Positions 18,832 to 42,206 of a stretch of 42,243 nt of DNA are shown here, piece by piece. The translations under genes and the position numbers were made by a program. The notes beneath the pieces are model-generated. The model made no database searches. It saw nothing but the letters and a program-made list of their open reading frames with translations, and was not told the origin of the DNA. Position 1 is the stretch's first letter. Every line of letters begins with the position of its first letter. The DNA is from Methanosarcinaceae archaeon. Its GTDB lineage: Archaea; Halobacteriota; Methanosarcinia; Methanosarcinales; Methanosarcinaceae. Location: positions 1-42,243 of the forward strand of contig JAUWQD010000022.1 of the NCBI GenBank assembly GCA_030611265.1, read 5' to 3'.

Positions 18832-20166
18832 ATGAAAATTGTCATCGTTGGTGCAGGGGAAGTAGGATATCACATTGCAAAATCCCTATACCTTACAAAC
18901 GACGTAGTCATCATTGATGATGATGAAGAAGCATGCCAGAGGGCTGATGATCTGGATGTACAGATTATACAGGGCAACGGCGCAAATGTGTCAATTCTTT
19001 CAAATGTTCTGAAAAATGCCGATCTTTTGGTTGCAGTTACGGGAAATGACGAGGTGAACATTGTTGCATGTATGGCTTCTAAACTGATAGTTGAAGGCAC
19101 TAGGCCCATAAAAACAATAGCAAGGGTTACCAATCCTGATTATATTGATAAGCCTGTTGCAAAACGGACGCAGATTGGTATTGATACCATGATCTGCCCT
19201 GAACTTGCCCTGGCATCAGAGGTCGCTGATGTTCTATCTATTCCTTCTGCCATTGATGCAGAGGTTTTTGCAGAAGGGAAAGTGGAAATGATGGAATTTG
19301 TGGTCACACCAGACAATATACTTGTCGGAAAAGAGATGCAAGATCTCCAATTATCGGACTGTTGTATTGTAAGTGCACTTTTTAGGGATGCTGAAGTCAT
19401 TATTCCACATGGGTCTGATACAATAAAAGCGAACGACCACATGGTAGTAATTGGAAAACCCGATGCCATGAAGGATATTCGCGGACTTTTTGGTGAAGTT
19501 TCCGGCAAGCGCAGCAAGATCCTTATAATAGGCGGAGGCGTTGTCGGATTCTATCTCGCAAATCTGATCAACAAAAATGATGTGAATCTTAAGATAATCG
19601 ATAACAACAGGGAACGCTGTGAATGTGTGGCTGATACTCTACCAGATGTTCTGGTGCTTCATGGTGACGGCACAGATGTGAACCTGTTAAAAGAAGAAGG
19701 AGTACACGAAATGGACGTTGTCATCGCGGTAACAGATAGTGATGAAAAAAATATGTTGTGTGCACTTTTGTCAAAGCAGCTCGGTGCGAAAAAAGTTATT
19801 GCAAGAGCTGACAGGTCCGAATATGTTCCGCTTTTTGAGATGGTGGGCGTTGATAGTGCCATAAGTCCAAGGGAAGCAACTGTTAACGAAGTGTTAAAAT
19901 TGACAATGGGAACCGGTATCGAAGCACTTACAACTATCGAAGGTGAAAAAGCCGACATAATTGAATATACAGCATTAAAGAAATCAAAGATCGTAGGTAA
20001 ACCTTTGAAAAAGGTTAAATTCCCGACAGGAGCAATTGTAAGCATGGTCGTTCATGAAGATGAAACAATTGTCCCTCGTGGAGATTACACAATTGAAGAA
20101 GGTGATCGTGTAGTGGTATTTTCATTACCATCTGCAGTTAAAGATGTGGAACGCATGTTCAAATAG
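18832..20166 (+). CDS. trkA: TrkA, NAD-binding regulator of potassium uptake (copy 1)
   Basis: A 444-residue protein with two RCK units. Each unit has a Rossmann NAD-binding domain (IVIVGAGEVGYHIAKSL at residue 2 and ILIIGGGVVGFYLANLI near 229) and a TrkA-C ligand-binding domain (FVVTPDNILVGKEM and TALKKSKIVGKPL). TrkA sits on the cytoplasmic face of TrkH and gates K+ flow in response to nucleotides. It is 5 bp (or 14 bp, by the preferred trkH start) upstream of trkH. Compared with copy 2, long blocks are identical (for example around 19360-19500) while others vary. Confidence 0.95.
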   Translation: MKIVIVGAGEVGYHIAKSLYLTNDVVIIDDDEEACQRADDLDVQIIQGNGANVSILSNVLKNADLLVAVTGNDEVNIVACMASKLIVEGTRPIKTIARVTNPDYIDKPVAKRTQIGIDTMICPELALASEVADVLSIPSAIDAEVFAEGKVEMMEFVVTPDNILVGKEMQDLQLSDCCIVSALFRDAEVIIPHGSDTIKANDHMVVIGKPDAMKDIRGLFGEVSGKRSKILIIGGGVVGFYLANLINKNDVNLKIIDNNRERCECVADTLPDVLVLHGDGTDVNLLKEEGVHEMDVVIAVTDSDEKNMLCALLSKQLGAKKVIARADRSEYVPLFEMVGVDSAISPREATVNEVLKLTMGTGIEALTTIEGEKADIIEYTALKKSKIVGKPLKKVKFPTGAIVSMVVHEDETIVPRGDYTIEEGDRVVVFSLPSAVKDVERMFK

Positions 20167-20180
20167 ATCCAGTGGTTCTT

Positions 20181-21599
20181 ATGAATTATAAGATAGTCCT
20201 TAATGTTTTGGGTGGGTTGCTCCGTTTTCTCGGACTGATAATGGTTGTACCACTATTGGTTGCATATTATTATGACGAATCATTATATCCATTCATTGTT
20301 GCAGTTGTAGTGACTGGTCTTACAGGGATTATTCTTTCACTTAAATATAAGTCAGATGAAGAATGGAAAACAAGAGATGGATTTGCGATCGTGTCTCTTG
20401 GATGGCTTGCAGCAGCCGCTTTTGGTGCGATTCCTTTTGTGTTTGACGGGATTAGCCCCCTAAATGCCTTTTTTGAATCGATGTCAGGTTTTACGACTAC
20501 CGGTGCAACTGTTTTTGTGGATATAGAAAACCATTCAAGGAGTATTCTTTTTTGGCGCAGTATGACCCAATGGATTGGTGGCATGGGAATTATCATGTTG
20601 TTTATTGCTATTCTTCCAAAACTTGGTGTTGCCGGACGTCAGCTGTTTCGTGCTGAAGCTCCCGGCCCTACTGAAGATAAGCTAAAACCAAGGATCAGGG
20701 AGACTGCGAAAATCCTCTGGATGGTCTATGTGGTCATGTCTCTTATCCAGGTTGTATTGTTGATACTTGCTAAAATGTCGGTTTATGATGCGGTTGTCCA
20801 TACATTCACGACCATGGCTTGCGGAGGTTTCTCACCATACGCAGATAGCGTCAAAACATTTAACAGTCCCATGATTGAAGGAATTATAATTCTGTTTATG
20901 TTTCTGGCAGGTGCAAACTTTGCACTTCATTATAAGACGTTGTATTCCAACAAAAAAAGTTTAGTCAATGATAATGAATTTCGTTTCTATGCCTTAATTG
21001 TGCTCTTTGCAACCGGTATTCTTGCCATATTACTGTGGCGAGATATGAATTATACGGTGTTTGATTCGTTGAGATATGCAGTTTTCCAGGTGGTTTCTAT
21101 TGTGACTACAACAGGTTTTGCAACTGTTGATTTTAACCAGTGGTCTGATTCTGCACGGATGGTGCTGTTCACTGTTATGTTCATTGGAGGCTCGGCAGGC
21201 TCAACTGCTGGTGGTATCAAGGTTGTAAGGGTGTTGTTATTGTTAAAATACGGACGTCGTGAATTGTTTAAATCAGTTCACCGAAAAGCGATTAAGCCGA
21301 TCAAGTTGAATGGCAAGACTGTATCAGATGATGTGATGAAATCAATTATTGCTTTTGTTGTGATATATTTAATGATATTTATGTTCAGTTCAGGAATATT
21401 ATCGATACTTGGAATGGATATGATAAGTTCATTGTCCGCATCCATTGCAACACTCGGGAATATTGGCCCGGGATTTAACCTGGTGGGTCCAATGGCGAAT
21501 TATGATATTATACATCCAATTGGAAAACTTGTGCTTATTACAAATATGTGGATTGGACGGCTTGAAGTGTATACAGTGATTGTGATGCTTATAGAGTAA
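20181..21599 (+). CDS. trkH: TrkH potassium uptake channel subunit (copy 1, altered C-terminus)
   Basis: A 472-residue membrane protein of the TrkH/KtrB family with about ten membrane helices and four pore loops. Filter-region segments: FTTTGATV, TTMACGGFSPY, VTTTGFATVDF and TLGNIGPGFN. It conducts K+ together with TrkA. I use ATG 20181 (MNYKIVLN), which aligns with copy 2, rather than GTG 20172. The C-terminus stops at EVYTVIVMLIE; copy 2 continues with TPEFWKR, a conserved-looking end. The missing residues result from the duplication junction, where the leader of unit 2 supplies the stop. The truncation is small and probably tolerated. Confidence 0.93.
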   Translation: MNYKIVLNVLGGLLRFLGLIMVVPLLVAYYYDESLYPFIVAVVVTGLTGIILSLKYKSDEEWKTRDGFAIVSLGWLAAAAFGAIPFVFDGISPLNAFFESMSGFTTTGATVFVDIENHSRSILFWRSMTQWIGGMGIIMLFIAILPKLGVAGRQLFRAEAPGPTEDKLKPRIRETAKILWMVYVVMSLIQVVLLILAKMSVYDAVVHTFTTMACGGFSPYADSVKTFNSPMIEGIIILFMFLAGANFALHYKTLYSNKKSLVNDNEFRFYALIVLFATGILAILLWRDMNYTVFDSLRYAVFQVVSIVTTTGFATVDFNQWSDSARMVLFTVMFIGGSAGSTAGGIKVVRVLLLLKYGRRELFKSVHRKAIKPIKLNGKTVSDDVMKSIIAFVVIYLMIFMFSSGILSILGMDMISSLSASIATLGNIGPGFNLVGPMANYDIIHPIGKLVLITNMWIGRLEVYTVIVMLIE

Positions 21600-21691
21600 A
21601 CTTTAAAACTAATACTGATTATAAGATGTATTCTATAATGTGAACTGTTTATTTTATTTTTTGGATTATTCCATCTGTTCGAGGAAATATT

Positions 21692-23026
21692 ATGAAAATT
21701 GTCATCGTTGGTGCAGGGGAAGTAGGTTATCACATTGCAAAATCCCTTTACCTTACAAATGACGTAGTCATCATTGATGAGAATCAAGAAGCATGCCAGA
21801 GGGTTGATGAACTTGATGTACAGGTTGTACAAGGCAACGGTGCAAATGTATCAATACTTGTAAACGCTTTAGTAGATACTGATCTTTTGGTTGCCGTGAC
21901 TGGCAATGATGAAGTTAACATAGTTGCATGTATGGCTTCTAAACTTCTCGTTGAAGGTAAAAAACCAATCAAAACAATAGCAAGGGTCACCAATCCTGAT
22001 TACATAGACAAGCCTGTTGCAAAACGGACGCAGATTGGTATTGATACAATGATCTGTCCTGAACTTGCTCTCGCATCAGAAGTGGCTGATTTGCTGTCCA
22101 TTCCTTCTGCCATTGATGCGGAGATTTTTGCAGATGGGAAAGTGGAAATGATGGAATTTGTGGTAAGACCTGAAAATACGCTTGTTGGAAAACATATGCA
22201 TGATCTTCAATTGTCCGATTGTTGTATTGTAAGTGCACTTTTTAGGGATGCTGAAGTCATTATTCCACATGGGTCTGACACAATAAAAGCGAACGACCAC
22301 ATGGTAGTAATTGGAAAACCCGATGCCATGAAGGATATTCGCGGACTTTTTGGTGAAGTTTCCGGCAAGCGTAGCAGGATCATGGTAATCGGCGGAGGTG
22401 TTGTGGGATTTTATCTCGCAAAGTTGATCAACAAAAATGATATGGATCTTAAAATCATCGATAACAATAGGGAACGGTGTGAATGTGTTGCTGATATTTT
22501 GACGGATGTTTTGGTACTTCATGGTGACGGGACAGATGTGAACCTGTTAAAAGAAGAAGGAGTACACGAAATGGACGTGGTTATCGCAGCCACAGACAGC
22601 GATGAGAAGAATATGTTGTGTGCACTTCTGTCAAAGCAACTTGGTGCGAAAAAAGTTATTGCAAGAGCTGACAGGTCCGAATATGTTCCGCTTTTTGAGA
22701 TGGTGGGTGTTGACAGTGCCATAAGTCCAAGGGAAGCAACTGTTAACGAAGTGTTAAAATTGACAATGGGAACCGGTATCGAAGCACTTACAACTATTGA
22801 AGGTGAAAAAGCAGACATAATTGAATATACGGCATTAAAGAGATCAAAGATCGTAGGCAAACCTTTGAAAAATATAAAATTCCCCGTGGGTGCCATTGTC
22901 AGCATGGTTGTTCACAAAAATGAAACGATTGTCCCTCGTGGTGATTACGTAATCGAAGAAGGTGATCATGTTGTGGTATTTTCATTATTATCTGCAGTTA
23001 AAGATGTTGAACGCATGTTCAAATAG
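21692..23026 (+). CDS. trkA: TrkA, NAD-binding regulator of potassium uptake (copy 2)
   Basis: A 444-residue paralogue of the gene at 18832, about 91% identical by hand count, with the same two RCK units. Changes cluster in the first Rossmann domain (IIDENQEACQRVDELDVQVV against IIDDDEEACQRADDLDVQII) and in the first TrkA-C domain (VVRPENTLVGKHMHDLQ). Both NAD motifs (GAGEVG, GGGVVG) are intact, so it should be functional. Differences near the ligand sites could give the two copies distinct effector responses. The leader is duplicated as well, so both units may share regulation. Confidence 0.95.
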   Translation: MKIVIVGAGEVGYHIAKSLYLTNDVVIIDENQEACQRVDELDVQVVQGNGANVSILVNALVDTDLLVAVTGNDEVNIVACMASKLLVEGKKPIKTIARVTNPDYIDKPVAKRTQIGIDTMICPELALASEVADLLSIPSAIDAEIFADGKVEMMEFVVRPENTLVGKHMHDLQLSDCCIVSALFRDAEVIIPHGSDTIKANDHMVVIGKPDAMKDIRGLFGEVSGKRSRIMVIGGGVVGFYLAKLINKNDMDLKIIDNNRERCECVADILTDVLVLHGDGTDVNLLKEEGVHEMDVVIAATDSDEKNMLCALLSKQLGAKKVIARADRSEYVPLFEMVGVDSAISPREATVNEVLKLTMGTGIEALTTIEGEKADIIEYTALKRSKIVGKPLKNIKFPVGAIVSMVVHKNETIVPRGDYVIEEGDHVVVFSLLSAVKDVERMFK

Positions 23027-23040
23027 ATCCAGTGATTCTG

Positions 23041-24474
23041 ATGAATTATAAGATAGTCCTTAATATTCTTGGTCTTTTGCTCCGTTTTCTCGGACTGGTA
23101 ATGATTGTACCACTATTGGTTGCATATTATTATGACGAATCATTGTATCCATTTATTGTTGCAATTGCAGTGACCGGTTTTACAGGTATTGTTCTTTCAC
23201 TTAAATATAGGTCAGATGAAGAATGGAAAACAAGAGATGGATTTGCGATCGTGTCTCTTGGATGGTTTGCAGCAGCCGCTTTTGGTGCCATTCCTTATGT
23301 ATTTGAAGGGATTAGCCCATTAAATGCCCTTTTTGAATCCATGTCAGGTTTTACAGCCACCGGTGCAACTGTTCTTGTAGATATAGAAAGCCATTCACGG
23401 AGTATTCTTTTTTGGCGCAGTATGACCCAATGGCTTGGTGGTATGGGAATTATCATGTTGTTTATTGCTATTCTTCCAAAACTTGGTGTTGCCGGACGTC
23501 AGTTGTTTCGTGCTGAAGCTCCGGGTCCTACTGAAGATAAGCTAAAACCAAGGATCAGGGAGACTGCGAAAATCCTCTGGCTGGTCTATGTGGTCATGTC
23601 TTTTATTCAGGTTGTATTGTTGATACTTGCTAAAATGTCGGTCTATGATGCGGTTCTCCATACATTCACGACTATGGCTTGCGGAGGTTTCTCACCATAC
23701 GCAGATAGCGTTAAAGCATTTAACAGTCCCATGATTGAAGGCATTATTATTCTGTTTATGTTTCTGGCAGGTGCAAACTTTGCACTTCATTATAAGACGC
23801 TGTATTCCAACAAAAAAAGTTTAGTCAATGATAATGAATTTATATTCTATGCCTCAATTGTGCTCTTTGCAACCGGTATTCTTGCCATATTACTGTGGCG
23901 TGATATGGATTATACGGTATTTGATTCGTTGAGATATGCAGTTTTCCATGTGATCTCTATTATCACTACAACAGGTTTTGCAACTATTGACTTTAACCTG
24001 TGGTCTGATTCTGCACGAATGGTGCTGTTCACTCTTATGTTCATTGGAGGCTCGGCAGGCTCAACTGCTGGTGGTATCAAGGTTGTAAGAATATTGCTGA
24101 TGTTGAAATTTGGACGTCGTGAATTGTTTAAATTAATTCACCGAAAAGCGATCAAGCCGATCAAGTTCAATGGTAGAACCGTGCCAGACGATGTTATGAA
24201 ATCGATTGTTGCTTTTCTAGTGATCTATTTTGTGTTATTTATATTCAGTTCAGTAATATTGTCGATACTTGGAATGGATATAATAAGTTCATTGACCGCG
24301 TCCATTGGAACACTCGGGAATGTTGGTCCAGGCTTTAATCTGGTGGGTCCAATGGCGAATTATGACATTGTACATCCAATTGGAAAACTTGTGCTTATTA
24401 CAAATATGTGGATTGGACGGCTCGAAGTGTTCACTGTGATCGTGATACTGACACCGGAATTCTGGAAAAGATGA
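23041..24474 (+). CDS. trkH: TrkH potassium uptake channel subunit (copy 2)
   Basis: A 477-residue TrkH with the complete C-terminus ending TPEFWKR, which identifies this as the intact original 3' end. It is about 89% identical to copy 1. The first pore loop reads FTATGATV rather than FTTTGATV; this Thr-to-Ala change is next to the selectivity filter and might alter ion preference or rate. Other filter segments are conserved. Start ATG 23041 chosen; an in-frame GTG at 23032 is possible. It is convergent with the geranylgeranyl reductase gene. Confidence 0.94.
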   Translation: MNYKIVLNILGLLLRFLGLVMIVPLLVAYYYDESLYPFIVAIAVTGFTGIVLSLKYRSDEEWKTRDGFAIVSLGWFAAAAFGAIPYVFEGISPLNALFESMSGFTATGATVLVDIESHSRSILFWRSMTQWLGGMGIIMLFIAILPKLGVAGRQLFRAEAPGPTEDKLKPRIRETAKILWLVYVVMSFIQVVLLILAKMSVYDAVLHTFTTMACGGFSPYADSVKAFNSPMIEGIIILFMFLAGANFALHYKTLYSNKKSLVNDNEFIFYASIVLFATGILAILLWRDMDYTVFDSLRYAVFHVISIITTTGFATIDFNLWSDSARMVLFTLMFIGGSAGSTAGGIKVVRILLMLKFGRRELFKLIHRKAIKPIKFNGRTVPDDVMKSIVAFLVIYFVLFIFSSVILSILGMDIISSLTASIGTLGNVGPGFNLVGPMANYDIVHPIGKLVLITNMWIGRLEVFTVIVILTPEFWKR

Positions 24475-37022: not shown

Positions 37023-37130
37023 TTAGGTTACCGTAGCTTATTTGTTTGGGTGGTTCCTGTGCGGAGGGAAATAAATCATAATTATTTCCTCTTGTAGAGA
37101 ACTTCATTGGATATGAGGAGTGTTTCGCGA
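37023..37130. repeat. About 108-bp dispersed repeat, copy 1
   Basis: Starts TTAGGTTACCGTAGC and contains GCGGAGGGAAATAAATCATA, the palindromic core GGAAATAA (37067-37074)/TTATTTCC (37082-37089), then TCTTGTAGAGAACT. It matches 41949-42056 over its length with about one indel, and the core is shared with 38711-38775. It ends next to the hicB-like stop. It is non-coding and could be a miniature mobile element (MITE). Confidence 0.7.
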
Positions 37131-37132
37131 AT

Positions 37133-37318
37133 TTAACCTAATTGGCAGTCTTCCTCTTCAAGGCACATCTCCATCACTTCATGGATGTTTTTGAGTGCTT
37201 CGTCGAGCGTTTCGCCCTGCGTATAACATCCTTTCAAAATCGGGCATTCCACTACAAAAAAGCCATCCTCATCCTTTTCTACGACAAACGGCAGATGCAC
37301 TTTAGAATGTAACATCAT
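37133..37318 (-). CDS. HicB-like antitoxin-family protein, no HicA seen
   Basis: 61 residues matching the HicB fold: a beta-alpha-beta unit with LPFVVEKDEDGFFVVECPIL, then KGCYTQGETLDEALKNIHEV and a short acidic end (CLEEEDC). In type II toxin-antitoxin pairs HicB neutralises the mRNase HicA. No HicA frame lies within 300 bp on either side; only the repeat and the ATPase gene do. It lacks a C-terminal DNA-binding domain, as is common for archaeal solo members. It may be an orphan antitoxin or have another partner. ATG 37318 or 37315. Confidence 0.75.
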   Translation of the reverse strand: MMLHSKVHLPFVVEKDEDGFFVVECPILKGCYTQGETLDEALKNIHEVMEMCLEEEDCQLG

Positions 37319-37415: not shown

Positions 37416-38705
37416 CTACTCAATAAGCCATTTCCACAATGGAACATACTTTATCATCTTTCCTGAAACATCTTCTTCCGCTTCATAGTCCCATGTGATG
37501 ATAAGCAGATCATCGCAATTCAATTCCTTTGAACCGTTCAGCAAAGCCCTTGTCTCACGCTCTTTTGTAGAAAAATTATCAATATCATAACAGACCTGTA
37601 TCAACTGTTTGACCGTTTTACCATCCCTTATTACAAAATCAACTTCCCTCTCAGATGTGGATTTGTAATAAAACAGGTCTCTTGTGCCCTTTCTTTTAAG
37701 TTCGACAAAGACAATGTTCTCAATCAGTCTGCCCTTATCCCTGATGCCCTGCAAAGACAATAGTCCATTGTCTACAAGATATATTTTTGGTATGCTTGAT
37801 TCGACATCTTTGTATGAATAAGAGAATCGCCGCAAGGGAAACACAATGAATGAGTCGGCAAAGTATTCAAAATAGTTGTACAGGGTGTTCTTGCTCACCT
37901 TTGTACCTTGTGATTTCAAGAAATTGAAGAATTTGTGGATCGAGAACTCTTTTGAATTGAAGATCGCATTGAGGAATATTTTTAGCACCTTTATGTTCTT
38001 TATATCATATCTCTCAACTATATCCCGAAATATTGTCACATCAAGGATCTCCCTTAATATCCGCTCCCACTCTTCCCGATATATTACAGTCTCGGGATAC
38101 CCACCATATTTGACGTAATCTTCGAGTTTATGAACGATTTTTGCTTTCTGTGCTGAAGAAAGATATTCACCCTGCTCGATGCCATCCGCCCTCAGCACTT
38201 CGGCAAATGAAAATGGATATACATCATACGTCAGACTTCTCCCTCTCATGCTTGTTGCGATCTCTTTGCTCATTAGTTTTGAGGAAGAGCCTGTGACAAA
38301 CACATTCATGTTTTCCATATCAACAAGTGTCCTTACAAATCGTTCCCATTCTGGAACTACCTGAACCTCGTCAAGAAAGAACCATACCTTTTTTGTCCGG
38401 TTAGCAGGATAAATTTCAAAAAACACTTCAAGCAGATCGTTAAGATCTTGGGCTGTCGCGCCTGCGAGCCTTATGTTTTCAAAATTCACATACAATATTT
38501 GATTCCGATCTTCCCCGCGCGCAAGAAGTTCTTTAATCCCGATATACATAAGATATGTCTTACCCGACCTTCTGGGACCTGAAAATACAACCGCCCTATT
38601 TAATGGAGTCTCCAGTGGAAAGCGAAGTTCCCTCTCCACAGGGTCAGGCAAACGCCTTTCCTGAAAGTCTTTGATTAATTCTCCCCATATTCTTTTTGAG
38701 ATCAT
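37416..38705 (-). CDS. DUF4143-type ATPase
   Basis: A 429-residue AAA-like ATPase of the widespread archaeal and bacterial group with a C-terminal DUF4143 region. Walker A FSGPRRSGKTY (about 41-51), Walker B VWFFLDEVQ (about 107-115) and VTGSSSKLMSKE (sensor-like). The C-terminal part has EREVDFVIRDGKT, a nuclease-like strand pattern (E..D..) seen in this group, which may be degenerate. Function is unknown; relatives are often mobile or linked to conflict systems. An AT-rich box inside the repeat copy at 38711-38775 may be its promoter, with an almost leaderless start. Confidence 0.82.
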   Translation of the reverse strand: MISKRIWGELIKDFQERRLPDPVERELRFPLETPLNRAVVFSGPRRSGKTYLMYIGIKELLARGEDRNQILYVNFENIRLAGATAQDLNDLLEVFFEIYPANRTKKVWFFLDEVQVVPEWERFVRTLVDMENMNVFVTGSSSKLMSKEIATSMRGRSLTYDVYPFSFAEVLRADGIEQGEYLSSAQKAKIVHKLEDYVKYGGYPETVIYREEWERILREILDVTIFRDIVERYDIKNIKVLKIFLNAIFNSKEFSIHKFFNFLKSQGTKVSKNTLYNYFEYFADSFIVFPLRRFSYSYKDVESSIPKIYLVDNGLLSLQGIRDKGRLIENIVFVELKRKGTRDLFYYKSTSEREVDFVIRDGKTVKQLIQVCYDIDNFSTKERETRALLNGSKELNCDDLLIITWDYEAEEDVSGKMIKYVPLWKWLIE

Positions 38706-38710
38706 AGTAT

Positions 38711-38775
38711 TATGTAGGGGGAAATAAGTTATAAATATTTCCTCTTGTGGGGAACTATATGGGATGTTAAGAGTA
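38711..38775. repeat. Dispersed repeat, copy 2 (divergent, at a promoter)
   Basis: GGAAATA (38720-38726) and TATTTCC (38736-38742) with TCTTGTGGGGAACT after, and GGGATGTTAAGAGTA, match the core and right part of the 108-bp repeat at 37023 and 41949. It ends a few bases before the DUF4143 ATPase start, and its ATATTTATAACTT, read on the minus strand, is a candidate TATA box. The left half is not recognisable. Confidence 0.55.
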
Positions 38776-38843: not shown

Positions 38844-39941
38844 TTATTGATTATCTTTCTGAGGATGTAAACTAAAAGCCTCGTCGAAATCGATTGCATT
38901 TTTAAATTTGTTGACTAATCCTTCATATGGTGGAAAAGCACCACCAAAACCTAGTACTCTTCTTGCCTTTGCAACTGCTTCTAGTTGTTCTAAAGTCCAA
39001 AATGGAGAAATATACTGATTCTTTTTCATTGACGTCAACGGTTCAAATCGCATTGGATAAGAAACACAACCAAGTTCTTGTATGTCTCTTGTTTTTTCTA
39101 AAAATGCATCAGGGGTATCACCATATTCTCGATCTTCATCATAAAAATTATATAGTACATAGATCAGAATCTTTCTCCTGTTTATCCCATGTTCTGCCAA
39201 CAGATTAACGGCATTTTTTATGATGTTTTTTTCACCAATCCAATCATATGCCATGCGCACTGTCGGCATTTTGAGACTTGCCAACATTTTTGCTTTTTCT
39301 TCATCTATCAATCGTGCATCAAGTCCTTGATTGAAATCGATTTTTAGACCAATTTCTTGCAGATTTTCAAGTACTTCTTTCCAGTCGGGTGACGCCAAAA
39401 AATTATTATCCCACAAAATTACTTGCTTATGCCCATCGTGAACATAATTTTCAACATCGGTAAGAATTGACCTCATTTCCCCTTCTATTTTTGGTACAGC
39501 GCAAAATGGGCAATTACGTATACATCCACGAGATGTGAATAATATTGAACTATTCCAATCCGTCCATTTTTCAACATCTTTCAAAATATCATAAGCTGGC
39601 ATATATTGTTCAGCAGTCTCACATAAGCCTATGTGAACATCAACATAGGGATAAACAGATTTGATGTGTTCTGACATTAACGAAGCATATATGCCGCCCA
39701 CATTGATCTTAGCATTAGGAAATAAAAAATGATAAAATTCGATTGCTTTATGAACTGGCTTCCAGGCATATGTGAATAAAGATGTAATTTCTATTTTATC
39801 TGGGTTGAAACTAATGTCATCATTTGTACCTCTGACCAATTTCACTTGATTTCCTTGTGACCGATGATACGATGCAAGTTTCATTAATCCCAACGGTGGG
39901 TATCGTGTATAATAATCAGGTTCTACAAGTAAAATGTTCAT
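38844..39941 (-). CDS. Radical SAM protein with N-terminal B12-type fold
   Basis: 365 residues. The first 120 residues look like a cobalamin-binding-type fold (MNILLVEPDYYTRYPPLGLM, then VNVGGIYASLMSE-like strands), but the DxHxxG motif that ligates cobalt is absent. The radical SAM cluster motif is SRGCIRNCPFC (C140, C144, C147), followed by a TIM-barrel pattern (DVENYVHDGHKQVILWDNN). The substrate is unknown. A GHKL ATPase gene lies 90 bp upstream on the same strand and probably shares its transcript. Its AT-rich codon use resembles that neighbour and differs from the core genes, suggesting acquisition. Confidence 0.82.
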   Translation of the reverse strand: MNILLVEPDYYTRYPPLGLMKLASYHRSQGNQVKLVRGTNDDISFNPDKIEITSLFTYAWKPVHKAIEFYHFLFPNAKINVGGIYASLMSEHIKSVYPYVDVHIGLCETAEQYMPAYDILKDVEKWTDWNSSILFTSRGCIRNCPFCAVPKIEGEMRSILTDVENYVHDGHKQVILWDNNFLASPDWKEVLENLQEIGLKIDFNQGLDARLIDEEKAKMLASLKMPTVRMAYDWIGEKNIIKNAVNLLAEHGINRRKILIYVLYNFYDEDREYGDTPDAFLEKTRDIQELGCVSYPMRFEPLTSMKKNQYISPFWTLEQLEAVAKARRVLGFGGAFPPYEGLVNKFKNAIDFDEAFSLHPQKDNQ

Positions 39942-40031
39942 AATTTATGATTAGGTAGGACATATTCTTAAACGTTCCTATTATTTCTTTAAAAAAGGAT
40001 CCTAAAATAGATGAAATGCAGGATCCTTAAT

Positions 40032-41786
40032 CTAAGGTTGGTACTTTTCGGATTTTTCTATTAACCGATATATCAAACCAATTACTGCGTACATTCCAGT
40101 AGCCATTGCGTATTTATCTTCTTCTGTAGCATTTTCGTACCACTCAAATGACTCTTTATCTTTTTCATGCTTAGCCATATTGACAAAAATATCATGAATG
40201 GTATAAATCAGAACCCCTATGCGAAGATCGCGCGCTGGCTTATTTTTATCTATGCACAACACTGGAGGAACACTTGTAGAAATCACCTTATCCCAACCAT
40301 ATGCAAGCCGACTGAGATCATATACTTCTTTTTTAGTAACAGTTGATCCAGTTTTAGCTTCAAGAATATCTTTGATTGAATCAGTAACACTCAACTCAGG
40401 ATATAATTTTCCTTCTATAGTCGTCCTTTTACATTTTTTTCTGACTTCTGGTGGCAATGAATCGATAATATTGTTTAATTGTTCTTTTCTCTTTTTTAAT
40501 AATACTTCGTTTCCTTGACCAGTTTTTGTTTTTTCTTCAAGTTTTAATATTTGTGTTTTCTCGTTTTCGAATTTGGTATCTATCAAAGATTTCATATCTT
40601 GAATGACTGGATCATCTGGGAATTTAACATTTTTTGTTGCTTTTGTTCTTACTTCATCCAATGTTTTTTTTGCAGATCGCACATCCCCATTTGATAAATG
40701 TTTTTGCACGGATCCAATTTGCTTCCCCAATGCTCGCTTAGATGTGTAACGATTTAAACTTTGTAGTTTTCCAATGAAATCTCCTACTTCTTCAAGAAAA
40801 GGACCCACAACTCCACTATTGTATTCAAAATTATTTCTCGCAGCATTTTCACGCACTTTTTCAGAAATAACGTGAATTTCCCCATATTGCCATTGATGAT
40901 ACGTTTTATCGTACAGATTTCTTACTAGATTTTCATTTCCAATGGTGTAACCTTTTTTCTTAAAATATATTCCTTTATTTGGCTTTTCTAGTTGCTCATT
41001 TTCAATTGATGTGATGAACCAGCCTACTGCGACTAACTGATTACCAACTTTGAATTCATGTTTAATGACTTTTTTGAAAAAAATATCATCTTTGCACGGC
41101 GGTTTAAATATAGGTTTGTGACAAAAGTTGATATTCACATCTGGAAGTTTCACACCCTTTTCCCTCAGCCACTCCTCAATCTCAGTAGCAAAAGAAAATA
41201 TATCTTTATCGAAAGGTGCTGGGACGGCTTCAATCAGATAATCATGGATGACCTTTTCTCCGAACACATCTTTTTGTGTTTTCAAAATTGATTCTAGTCT
41301 CACCATAGTAAAATGATCGTCTTCAAATGACTCATCGGCACCTAGAGCTATTTCTTCAATGTCTCCTGTAGCGCTGGTTAAAAAATCCAGAAGAGATTGT
41401 TTATCTACATTTCCATCTAGAATTTTTTTGTTATCTATCTCGATCCGATATTTTTTATCATTCATTTTTTTGGTTATTATAACAATTCTATTACATGCAG
41501 GAACACCACTCCAAATTCCTATCCCCCTCCAGCCGGTATCTTCTTCTTTTTTACTGGATATTCCCATATACCATGCTTCTTTGAGCTCTTTCTTGCTCAT
41601 ACCAGAGCCATCATCTTTTATGATTAAAGATTCAGATCCATTTTCAAAAAAAACATCAATATTCTTGGCATGAGAATCAATGCTATTTTGTATATATTCT
41701 CGCAAACAATTTTGATTACCGTCATATAGACCTGATGTGATAATTTCAATTAAGTCATGACCTATTGCTTCATCAGTAAATTCCAT
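40032..41786 (-). CDS. GHKL (Hsp90/MORC-like) ATPase
   Basis: A 584-residue protein with an N-terminal GHKL ATP-binding domain: CLREYIQNSIDSHAKNI (E30, N34, D37), IIKDDGSGMSKKEL (about 56-69) and GWRGIGIWSG (about 85-94). A middle domain resembles the transducer of gyrase, MutL or Hsp90 (conserved core to about residue 330). From about 350 to 460 is a helical, coiled-coil-rich region (KFENEKTQILKLEEKTKTG). The C-terminal helical domain is not recognised. It is not a known Hsp90, MutL or Top6B. The promoter is probably the TATATAAATT box near 41832-41842 with AAGGTG before the ATG. Confidence 0.8.
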   Translation of the reverse strand: MEFTDEAIGHDLIEIITSGLYDGNQNCLREYIQNSIDSHAKNIDVFFENGSESLIIKDDGSGMSKKELKEAWYMGISSKKEEDTGWRGIGIWSGVPACNRIVIITKKMNDKKYRIEIDNKKILDGNVDKQSLLDFLTSATGDIEEIALGADESFEDDHFTMVRLESILKTQKDVFGEKVIHDYLIEAVPAPFDKDIFSFATEIEEWLREKGVKLPDVNINFCHKPIFKPPCKDDIFFKKVIKHEFKVGNQLVAVGWFITSIENEQLEKPNKGIYFKKKGYTIGNENLVRNLYDKTYHQWQYGEIHVISEKVRENAARNNFEYNSGVVGPFLEEVGDFIGKLQSLNRYTSKRALGKQIGSVQKHLSNGDVRSAKKTLDEVRTKATKNVKFPDDPVIQDMKSLIDTKFENEKTQILKLEEKTKTGQGNEVLLKKRKEQLNNIIDSLPPEVRKKCKRTTIEGKLYPELSVTDSIKDILEAKTGSTVTKKEVYDLSRLAYGWDKVISTSVPPVLCIDKNKPARDLRIGVLIYTIHDIFVNMAKHEKDKESFEWYENATEEDKYAMATGMYAVIGLIYRLIEKSEKYQP

Positions 41787-41948
41787 ATTTTACACCTTAA
41801 TAATTGAATTCAATCTAGAGAATGCTATAATTTATATACTTCCCAATAGATTTAAGGATTTCTAAAAAATAATAGTTCGAACTCTTATATAGAAAGACCG
41901 TGACATCAGAGAAGTTAGTCTTGATCTGAATTATTTTCAGTTATGTTA

Positions 41949-42056
41949 TTAGGTTACTGTAACTGATTTGGCAAGGTTGTTCTATGCGGAGGGAAATAAA
42001 TCATGATTATTTCCTCTTGTAGAGAACTCCATTGAATGTTAGAAGTATATTTGCAA
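41949..42056. repeat. About 108-bp dispersed repeat, copy 3
   Basis: Starts TTAGGTTACTGTAAC and carries GCGGAGGGAAATAAATCATG, GGAAATAA (41992-41999)/TTATTTCC (42007-42014) and TCTTGTAGAGAACTCC. It matches copy 1 closely, with one indel near the start. It lies about 160 bp upstream of the GHKL gene, in the otherwise gene-free end of the window (41787-42243). Confidence 0.7.
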
Positions 42057-42133
42057 AAATCATGCAGCAATGAAAACTAAAATGTGTGATAAATTCAATT
42101 GCACACACATATTCCACTGATTCTCATTGAGAT

Positions 42134-42206
42134 GCGCCGCCTGCGGCGCTGTGACAAGAAAGTCATATCTTGAATTGCAGAAATGCCACTCCCTCCATTC
42201 GGAGTG
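42134..42206. other. Two GC-rich hairpins at the window end
   Basis: GCGCCG (42134-42139) pairs with CGGCGC (42144-42149), and CACTCC (42187-42192) with GGAGTG (42201-42206). They are strikingly GC-rich compared with the surroundings. No gene is visible from 41787 to the end. The role is unknown. Confidence 0.45.

Follow-up and report, generated by a model that had tools for sequence, protein, structure and literature searches.

A GHKL/Hsp90-like ATPase gene and a radical S-adenosylmethionine (SAM) enzyme gene lie side by side in a stretch of DNA from a Methanosarcinaceae archaeon, and relatives of this pair recur beside restriction-type defence modules in archaea and bacteria. The stretch analysed, here called the window, comprises 42,243 nucleotides (positions 1-42243 of contig C76) of a 2.86 Mb genome (G000). 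In the window the pair is a mobile two-gene cassette. Among its relatives the radical SAM protein (rSAM) is a conserved hub and the GHKL ATPase is its commonest partner. It usually belongs with the rSAM to larger modular systems, where the two take the modification position and are not a stand-alone effector pair. The rSAM is most likely a nucleic-acid-modifying enzyme, with DNA modification or DNA marking favoured. The balance of evidence tilts modestly towards an arrangement in which the rSAM marks DNA and the GHKL ATPase acts as a clamp, the two together supplying the modification arm to a family of modular defence systems that resemble restriction-modification. A sequence-only reading of the window had singled out the pair as a two-gene unit of possible anti-phage function; the observation was right, and it was understated.

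The two proteins and their recurrence as a pair

Both genes are intact. The rSAM has the CxxxCxxC motif, the Pfam match and the fold of the radical SAM superfamily, and it also matches PHROG 9298 (1.7e-70). Alignment of homologues revealed that C140, C144 and C147 are invariant and are the sole conserved cysteines; D178, F203, Q205, G206 and D233 are invariant as well. The best PDB match of the AlphaFold2 model (pLDDT 96.3) is MiaB with bound RNA (6e-11), followed by MtaB, TokK, AprD4 and RimO. The N-terminal Rossmann-like domain and the rSAM barrel are common to the methylthiotransferases MiaB, MtaB and RimO and to the B12-type rSAMs TokK, AprD4 and OxsB. However, the window protein has neither the second conserved cysteine set nor the DxHxxG motif, and its identity to these enzymes is 12-16%. 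The N-terminus had been described as B12-like and devoid of DxHxxG; its Pfam B12-binding match (0.003) falls under the cut-off, and the motif is not present in the sequence after the first N-terminal strand. DxHxxG is also missing in some B12-type rSAMs.

The GHKL ATPase contains the E..N, DxGxG and GxG boxes which, with the HATPase_c_3 match over residues 27-121, place it in its family. E30, N34, D58, G60, G62, G88, G90 and R317 are invariant or nearly so among the aligned homologues. The top PDB matches of its AlphaFold2 model (pLDDT 81, weak in the C-terminal half) are Hsp90/TRAP1 (5e-14), and a kinship with MutL is seen in sequence (TIGR00585, 3.7e-9). The ATPase and transducer fold, the catalytic Glu/Asn and the glycine boxes are shared with Hsp90/TRAP1, MutL and MORC-type GHKL ATPases and with the MzaB and BbrUII-type restriction GHKLs. 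The window protein differs from all of these in its helical C-terminal half, which is modelled with low confidence. This half had been noted as unassigned and remains so, with HATPase_c_3 confined to the N-terminal part and no Pfam match over threshold beyond it. Neither a nuclease nor a toxin domain was recognisable in Pfam and profile scans or in the model.

The distribution of the pair is that of an accessory element. In a survey of 238 genomes of the class, close relatives of the rSAM (E<1e-150) and of the GHKL ATPase (E<1e-60) were each found in nine genomes. Both were present in seven of these and, in all seven, the genes were adjacent on one strand in the order GHKL then rSAM. One of the two GHKL-only genomes is cut at a contig end, and in the other the gene is followed by a transposase-like gene. 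The association extends to plasmids, where 12 out of 12 with a GHKL match also bear the rSAM; the usual order is a DndB/DpdB-like protein, the rSAM and an ATP-binding protein, with overlapping open reading frames (ORFs). A wider scan of 84,980 species genomes confirmed at least 519 rSAM relatives, the best 80 of which, going by their record titles, span archaea and more than 15 bacterial phyla; 79 of these loci entered the neighbour counts. Immediate neighbour slots of the rSAM were occupied by a GHKL gene in 49 of 151 cases (32%), compared with 1 of 271 (0.4%) at a distance of six or more genes. Moreover, the distance matrix of the rSAM proteins is correlated with that of the GHKL proteins paired with them (r=0.83), a value reached in 0 of 2000 permutations. 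Since shared inheritance of adjoining genes adds to this correlation, it shows a co-inherited unit and not contact between the proteins. Chance adjacency was rejected on the basis of the roughly 80-fold enrichment at the adjacent position and the correlated matrices. The repeated adjacency of homologues that the sequence-only reading had put forward for checking was found in the class genomes, on the plasmids and in the wider locus set.

Variants of the locus were also observed. In two loci (L049:666-4902 and L063:4161-8337) the rSAM and a divergent GHKL are followed by a 389-aa protein which by eye resembles a nucleotide cyclase, a possible signalling variant. An archaeal plasmid (L014:7597-9630) carries an rSAM of the same family whose annotation includes an intein homing endonuclease at the N-terminus; three DNA methyltransferase genes follow this rSAM.

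As viperins are the best-known rSAM enzymes of defence (PMC12926258), they offer a precedent for a different function, in which the rSAM would make a viperin-like antiviral small molecule or modified nucleotide, or would modify a protein, and the nuclease modules would be independent neighbours in defence islands. The fold matches AprD4 and TokK, which act on small molecules, speak for this explanation as well. Prokaryotic viperins (pVips) resemble the window protein in being rSAM enzymes tied to defence, but they differ from it in their N-terminal domain and their neighbours. Viperin identity was rejected, as no viperin model is among the NCBIfam matches at E<=1. Furthermore, the neighbours of the rSAM are non-random, recurring at offsets 1-4 with ORFs that often overlap, and the correlated distance matrices likewise argue against a small-molecule or protein substrate, which is considered quite unlikely.

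Restriction-type modules and the modification position

At least one restriction-type module was found within six genes of the rSAM in 55 of the 79 loci. Module A consists of two ParB-like proteins, a small PD...EAK...Q protein and a DpdE/ZorD-like SNF2 helicase. Modules B and C each contain a second GHKL, accompanied in module B by NurA-HerA (names inferred through homology to Marinitoga virus annotations) and in module C by PIN_8. Module E is composed of PbeA, PbeC and a DndE-like protein, and module F of the DISARM proteins DrmA-DrmB with NERD/UvrD helicases. Proteins of the DndB/DpdB family (PF14072) lie near the rSAM in 18 of the 79 loci.

Two components of these loci stand out in their own right. 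The small PD...EAK...Q protein (L002:5965-6381 and cluster h2) has no Pfam match and is probably an undescribed family of PD-(D/E)XK nucleases. In or near rSAM loci, a DndB/DpdB-family domain was also found fused to an N-terminal region whose conserved residues resemble those of restriction endonucleases (L008:6475-8844 and cluster c16).

The greatest weight belongs to the loci from the window's own group, in G127 and G192. Pbe-type/DndDE cores pair with DndC or with methylases (PMC6459918; PMC10853773), and 165 of 553 PbeAC loci have no recognised modification component (PMC6459918). Among the seven PbeC loci of the class, the partner was the rSAM in three, a C5 cytosine methylase in two and DndC-DndD in one, while the last lies on a short contig and is not resolvable. 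PbeA and PbeC proteins in rSAM loci were matched at 1e-236 and 2e-135, respectively. An archaeon of the same family (G127) has the order PbeA-PbeB-PbeC-PbeD-GHKL-rSAM, its rSAM being 69% and its GHKL 47% identical to those of the window. In locus L222, of the same family, PbeABCD form one operon, with PbeC at 1468 bits, a PLD/ResIII helicase as PbeA, and PbeB and PbeD called by the size of their genes (69 and 139 aa). DndC, C5 methylase and N4 methylase were not detected there by phmmer, and GHKL-rSAM is present instead. The archaeal phosphorothioate-based defence DndCDEA-PbeABCD is among the closest known systems: in L222, L246, L231 and L047, an operon with PbeA, a PbeB-sized gene, PbeC and PbeD continues directly downstream into relatives of the pair. 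In these loci, however, no DndC was found, and the rSAM, often with the GHKL, replaces DndCDEA or the methylase. The CxC ABC-ATPase-DndE systems of Rakesh et al. are counted here with DndCDEA-PbeABCD.

A similar arrangement is seen with DISARM. DrmA and DrmB homologues adjoin the rSAM in L097 (4e-163 and 4e-52), in L089 and L066, which contain the same gene clusters, and in L227 (2.5e-105 and 6.6e-22), and a genome of the same class (G192) carries GHKL-rSAM-DrmA-DrmB. In L089, L097 and L066 the rSAM, in some cases with the GHKL, may stand in place of the DISARM methyltransferase. Motif and phmmer searches of these three loci, which may be cut, found no convincing DrmM-type methyltransferase adjoining the rSAM; the sole methyltransferase motif match, in L097, is well downstream and outside the operon. 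With the Dpd (7-deazaguanine DNA) and Dnd systems, the 18 rSAM loci above share a DndB/DpdB-family protein (DpdB-like match, 5e-15) and many loci a DpdE/ZorD-like SNF2 helicase, but the modification enzyme would here be the rSAM protein. When C5 methylase, N4 methylase and DndC sequences were searched for with phmmer, 6 of 80 loci gave any candidate within 7 kb of the rSAM, and some of these candidates are spurious, UvrB for example. It is mainly because rSAM, methylase and DndC alternate in Pbe loci, and because methylases are rare near the rSAM, that the rSAM is read as the modification enzyme. Its structural closeness to MiaB, which modifies RNA, speaks for this reading too.

In known defence systems, self DNA is marked by methylases, by phosphorothioate enzymes or by 7-deazaguanine enzymes. 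The mechanism proposed here is conditional throughout, from DNA as the substrate and the chemistry to the use of ATP, the outcome for defence and the way in which a stand-alone pair would work. In it, the GHKL ATPase would close in an ATP-dependent manner around DNA or around the rSAM and present the target DNA. The rSAM, using its [4Fe-4S] cluster and SAM, could then alter a base or sugar carbon beyond the reach of ordinary methyltransferases. The resulting mark would enable a separate restriction module (SNF2 with PD-(D/E)XK, NurA-HerA, PIN, Pbe/DndDE or DISARM DrmAB) to recognise self, or would license its action. A bolder version is put forward tentatively: that the rSAM and the Hsp90-like ATPase install a new carbon-centred DNA modification, serving as the self mark for interchangeable restriction modules across several phyla (Pbe, DISARM, SNF2/PD-DEXK, NurA-HerA and PIN), and that solo rSAMs of phages are a counter-defence.

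It may be asked whether the rSAM acts instead on invader DNA or on lesions, sensing, stripping or repairing a phage modification or damaged base. The MutL/Hsp90-like GHKL would then serve as matchmaker, and the site would be processed by the nuclease-translocase modules. The MutL relationship of the GHKL and the nature of NurA-HerA and SNF2 as DNA-processing machines are in keeping with this, and rSAM enzymes of DNA repair exist, such as spore photoproduct lyase. Nevertheless, where some Pbe loci have the rSAM, others have a methylase or DndC; most rSAM loci lack methylase and DndC genes; and Pbe and DISARM modules are known to require a self mark or to put up with one. A role in lesion or invader processing is thus unlikely, and the marking of self DNA is retained as the preferred function.

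Several observations weigh against DNA marking by the rSAM. The Pbe series is small, with six resolvable loci, and one rSAM-bearing Pbe locus (G107) also has an adjoining N4/N6 methylase gene on the other strand, therefore replacement is not strict. No partner of any kind was found in 10 of the 79 rSAM loci. The MiaB-like fold is also near that of B12-type enzymes for small molecules (TokK and AprD4). In addition, the window genome has no PbeC (model PDLC02712; PbeA, PbeB and PbeD were not searched separately), no DrmA match (DrmB was not searched for) and no DndB/DpdB homologue (PF14072), which leaves the window pair without an identified restriction arm. Finally, methylase genes are not significantly enriched beside phage rSAMs, solo copies that might serve to protect phage DNA, when near and far positions on the same contigs are compared (p=0.21).

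These findings place known defence genes (PbeA/PbeC, DrmA/DrmB, DpdB-like and HerA-NurA) near the rSAM, and no link to a housekeeping pathway appeared in the loci examined. The earlier interpretation is thereby supported in part: a recurrent, defence-linked pair was found, and the two-gene unit is recast as an rSAM hub, with the GHKL as its commonest partner, within larger modular systems. From these associations we infer an anti-phage role. Full-text literature searches, with subscription papers and preprints largely outside them, turned up no rSAM-GHKL system and no rSAM partnered with DISARM, Pbe, DndB or HerA-NurA; the pair is apparently undescribed, as had been suspected, although absence of a description is unproven. 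If the proposal is true, an rSAM at the modification position would bring a further, new type of chemistry to DNA modification, and the pair may be a new cellular means of tagging or sensing DNA against viruses. The rSAM would also be a candidate modification enzyme for some of the 'solitary' Pbe systems in which this component is missing (165/553 PbeAC; PMC6459918), and likewise for DISARM-like loci without a visible methylase. Plasmid-borne loci in the Alphaproteobacteria, including Mesorhizobium, Rhizobium and Novosphingobium pNL1, with Mesorhizobium sp. NZP2077 and Novosphingobium aromaticivorans as culturable carriers, make the idea of rSAM marking directly testable.

The cassette site and the gap between the genes

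In the window the pair lies in an island with a GC content of 33-38%, compared with about 40-47% across most of the window. The AT-richer island, the HicB-like gene, the DUF4143 ATPase and the three repeat copies reported from sequence were all present (Table 1). Three direct repeats of about 65 bp with a palindromic core bound two exchangeable cassettes, HicB-DUF4143 and rSAM-GHKL. No further copies were found in a search of the window genome and, among 40 relatives searched, the repeat was found only in this genus. No recombinase was identified for this repeat-bounded hotspot.

Table 1. Features of the island in the window
Feature	Position	Strand	Evidence
Direct repeat R1, outer island boundary on the thioredoxin-gene side	37057..37121	+	Repeat search, genome search, congener comparison
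HicB-like gene, 61 aa, island neighbour outside the system	37133..37318	-	HicB_lk_antitox 6.8e-9
AAA_14/DUF4143 ATPase gene, 429 aa, in a different cassette and outside the system	37416..38705	-	AAA_14 2.3e-37, DUF4143 9.6e-20
Direct repeat R2, border of the HicB-DUF4143 and rSAM-GHKL cassettes	38710..38774	+	Repeat search, genome search
Radical SAM (rSAM) gene, B12-domain-like N-terminus	38844..39941	-	365 aa, intact ORF; Radical_SAM 1.2e-8
Intergenic inverted repeat, T-run and TATA-like motif	39965..40028	-	Sequence
GHKL/Hsp90-like ATPase gene, rSAM partner	40032..41786	-	584 aa, intact ORF; HATPase_c_3 1.4e-15
Direct repeat R3, closing the rSAM-GHKL cassette on its outer side	41982..42046	+	Repeat search, genome search, congener comparison

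Comparison with congeners revealed three states of the site, which in G003 and G005 has a thioredoxin gene on one side and a gene for a GMP synthase subunit on the other; the latter is visible only in these two genomes because the window ends before it. In G005 a single repeat is present without either cassette, and this empty site identifies the pair as a self-contained cassette. In G003 the HicB-DUF4143 cassette is accompanied by other cargo, a 247-aa gene, and not by the GHKL-rSAM pair, and the window carries both HicB-DUF4143 and the pair. Since HicB and DUF4143 are present without the pair in G003, both were rejected as members of the system. The sequence past R3 (41941-42148) matches the empty-site flank of G005, therefore the two-gene cassette is complete despite lying near the window end, and the suggestion that the contig end hides further members was rejected. 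In a single locus elsewhere (L082), the rSAM is followed by a DUF4143 protein.

That only these two genes lie between the repeats, and that the G005 chromosome resumes outside them, could also mean that the two window genes act alone, as a defence cassette or a selfish one, with the GHKL itself as effector or sensor and the links to restriction modules elsewhere arising through secondary recruitment. The lack of a restriction module in the cassette and the absence of PbeC, DrmA and DndB from the genome agree with this, as do module-free pairs in four other loci (L025, L026, L029 and L223). Against this, the GHKL has no recognisable nuclease or toxin domain, and the pair's close relatives come with Pbe or DISARM modules; such a cassette is given little probability. 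Under the preferred function in DNA marking, the window would hold the modification arm alone. The pair could then be an orphan that marks DNA, a compact system, or one that relies on a partner in trans.

The two genes are separated by a gap of 90 nt. It contains an inverted repeat with GATC cores, whose halves are AAGGATCCT (40028-40020) and AGGATCCTT (40003-39995), a T-run, and a TATA-like GGAACGTTTAAGAA (39978-39965) about 24 nt 5' of the rSAM ATG. Due to these elements the adjacent genes do not necessarily form one transcript; of the two-gene unit first proposed, adjacency on one strand stands and a single transcript does not necessarily follow. RGATCY halves are shared by most of the seven other archaeal GHKL-rSAM gaps aligned with the window, and the inverted repeat is a possible operator, terminator or modification site. 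A conserved RNA hairpin was rejected, as the repeat is partly kept as DNA and only the window gap folds below shuffled sequences (z=-2.1).

Phage copies and a minor observation

In a maximum-likelihood tree most phage rSAMs (PHROG 9298, without a GHKL) are placed apart from the module-bearing cellular rSAMs. A large group of solo rSAMs was observed in phages (L104-L183, L015, L016 and L022), including viruses of Methanomassiliicoccales and Bacteroides phages. Methylase and ParB PHROGs head the list of their neighbours. In view of the near-versus-far comparison given above, a preferential position beside DNA methylases was rejected and is not used as support.

Elsewhere in the window (18832-24474), two adjacent pairs of ORFs of near-equal length (444 and 475 aa; 444 and 480 aa) suggest a tandem duplication.

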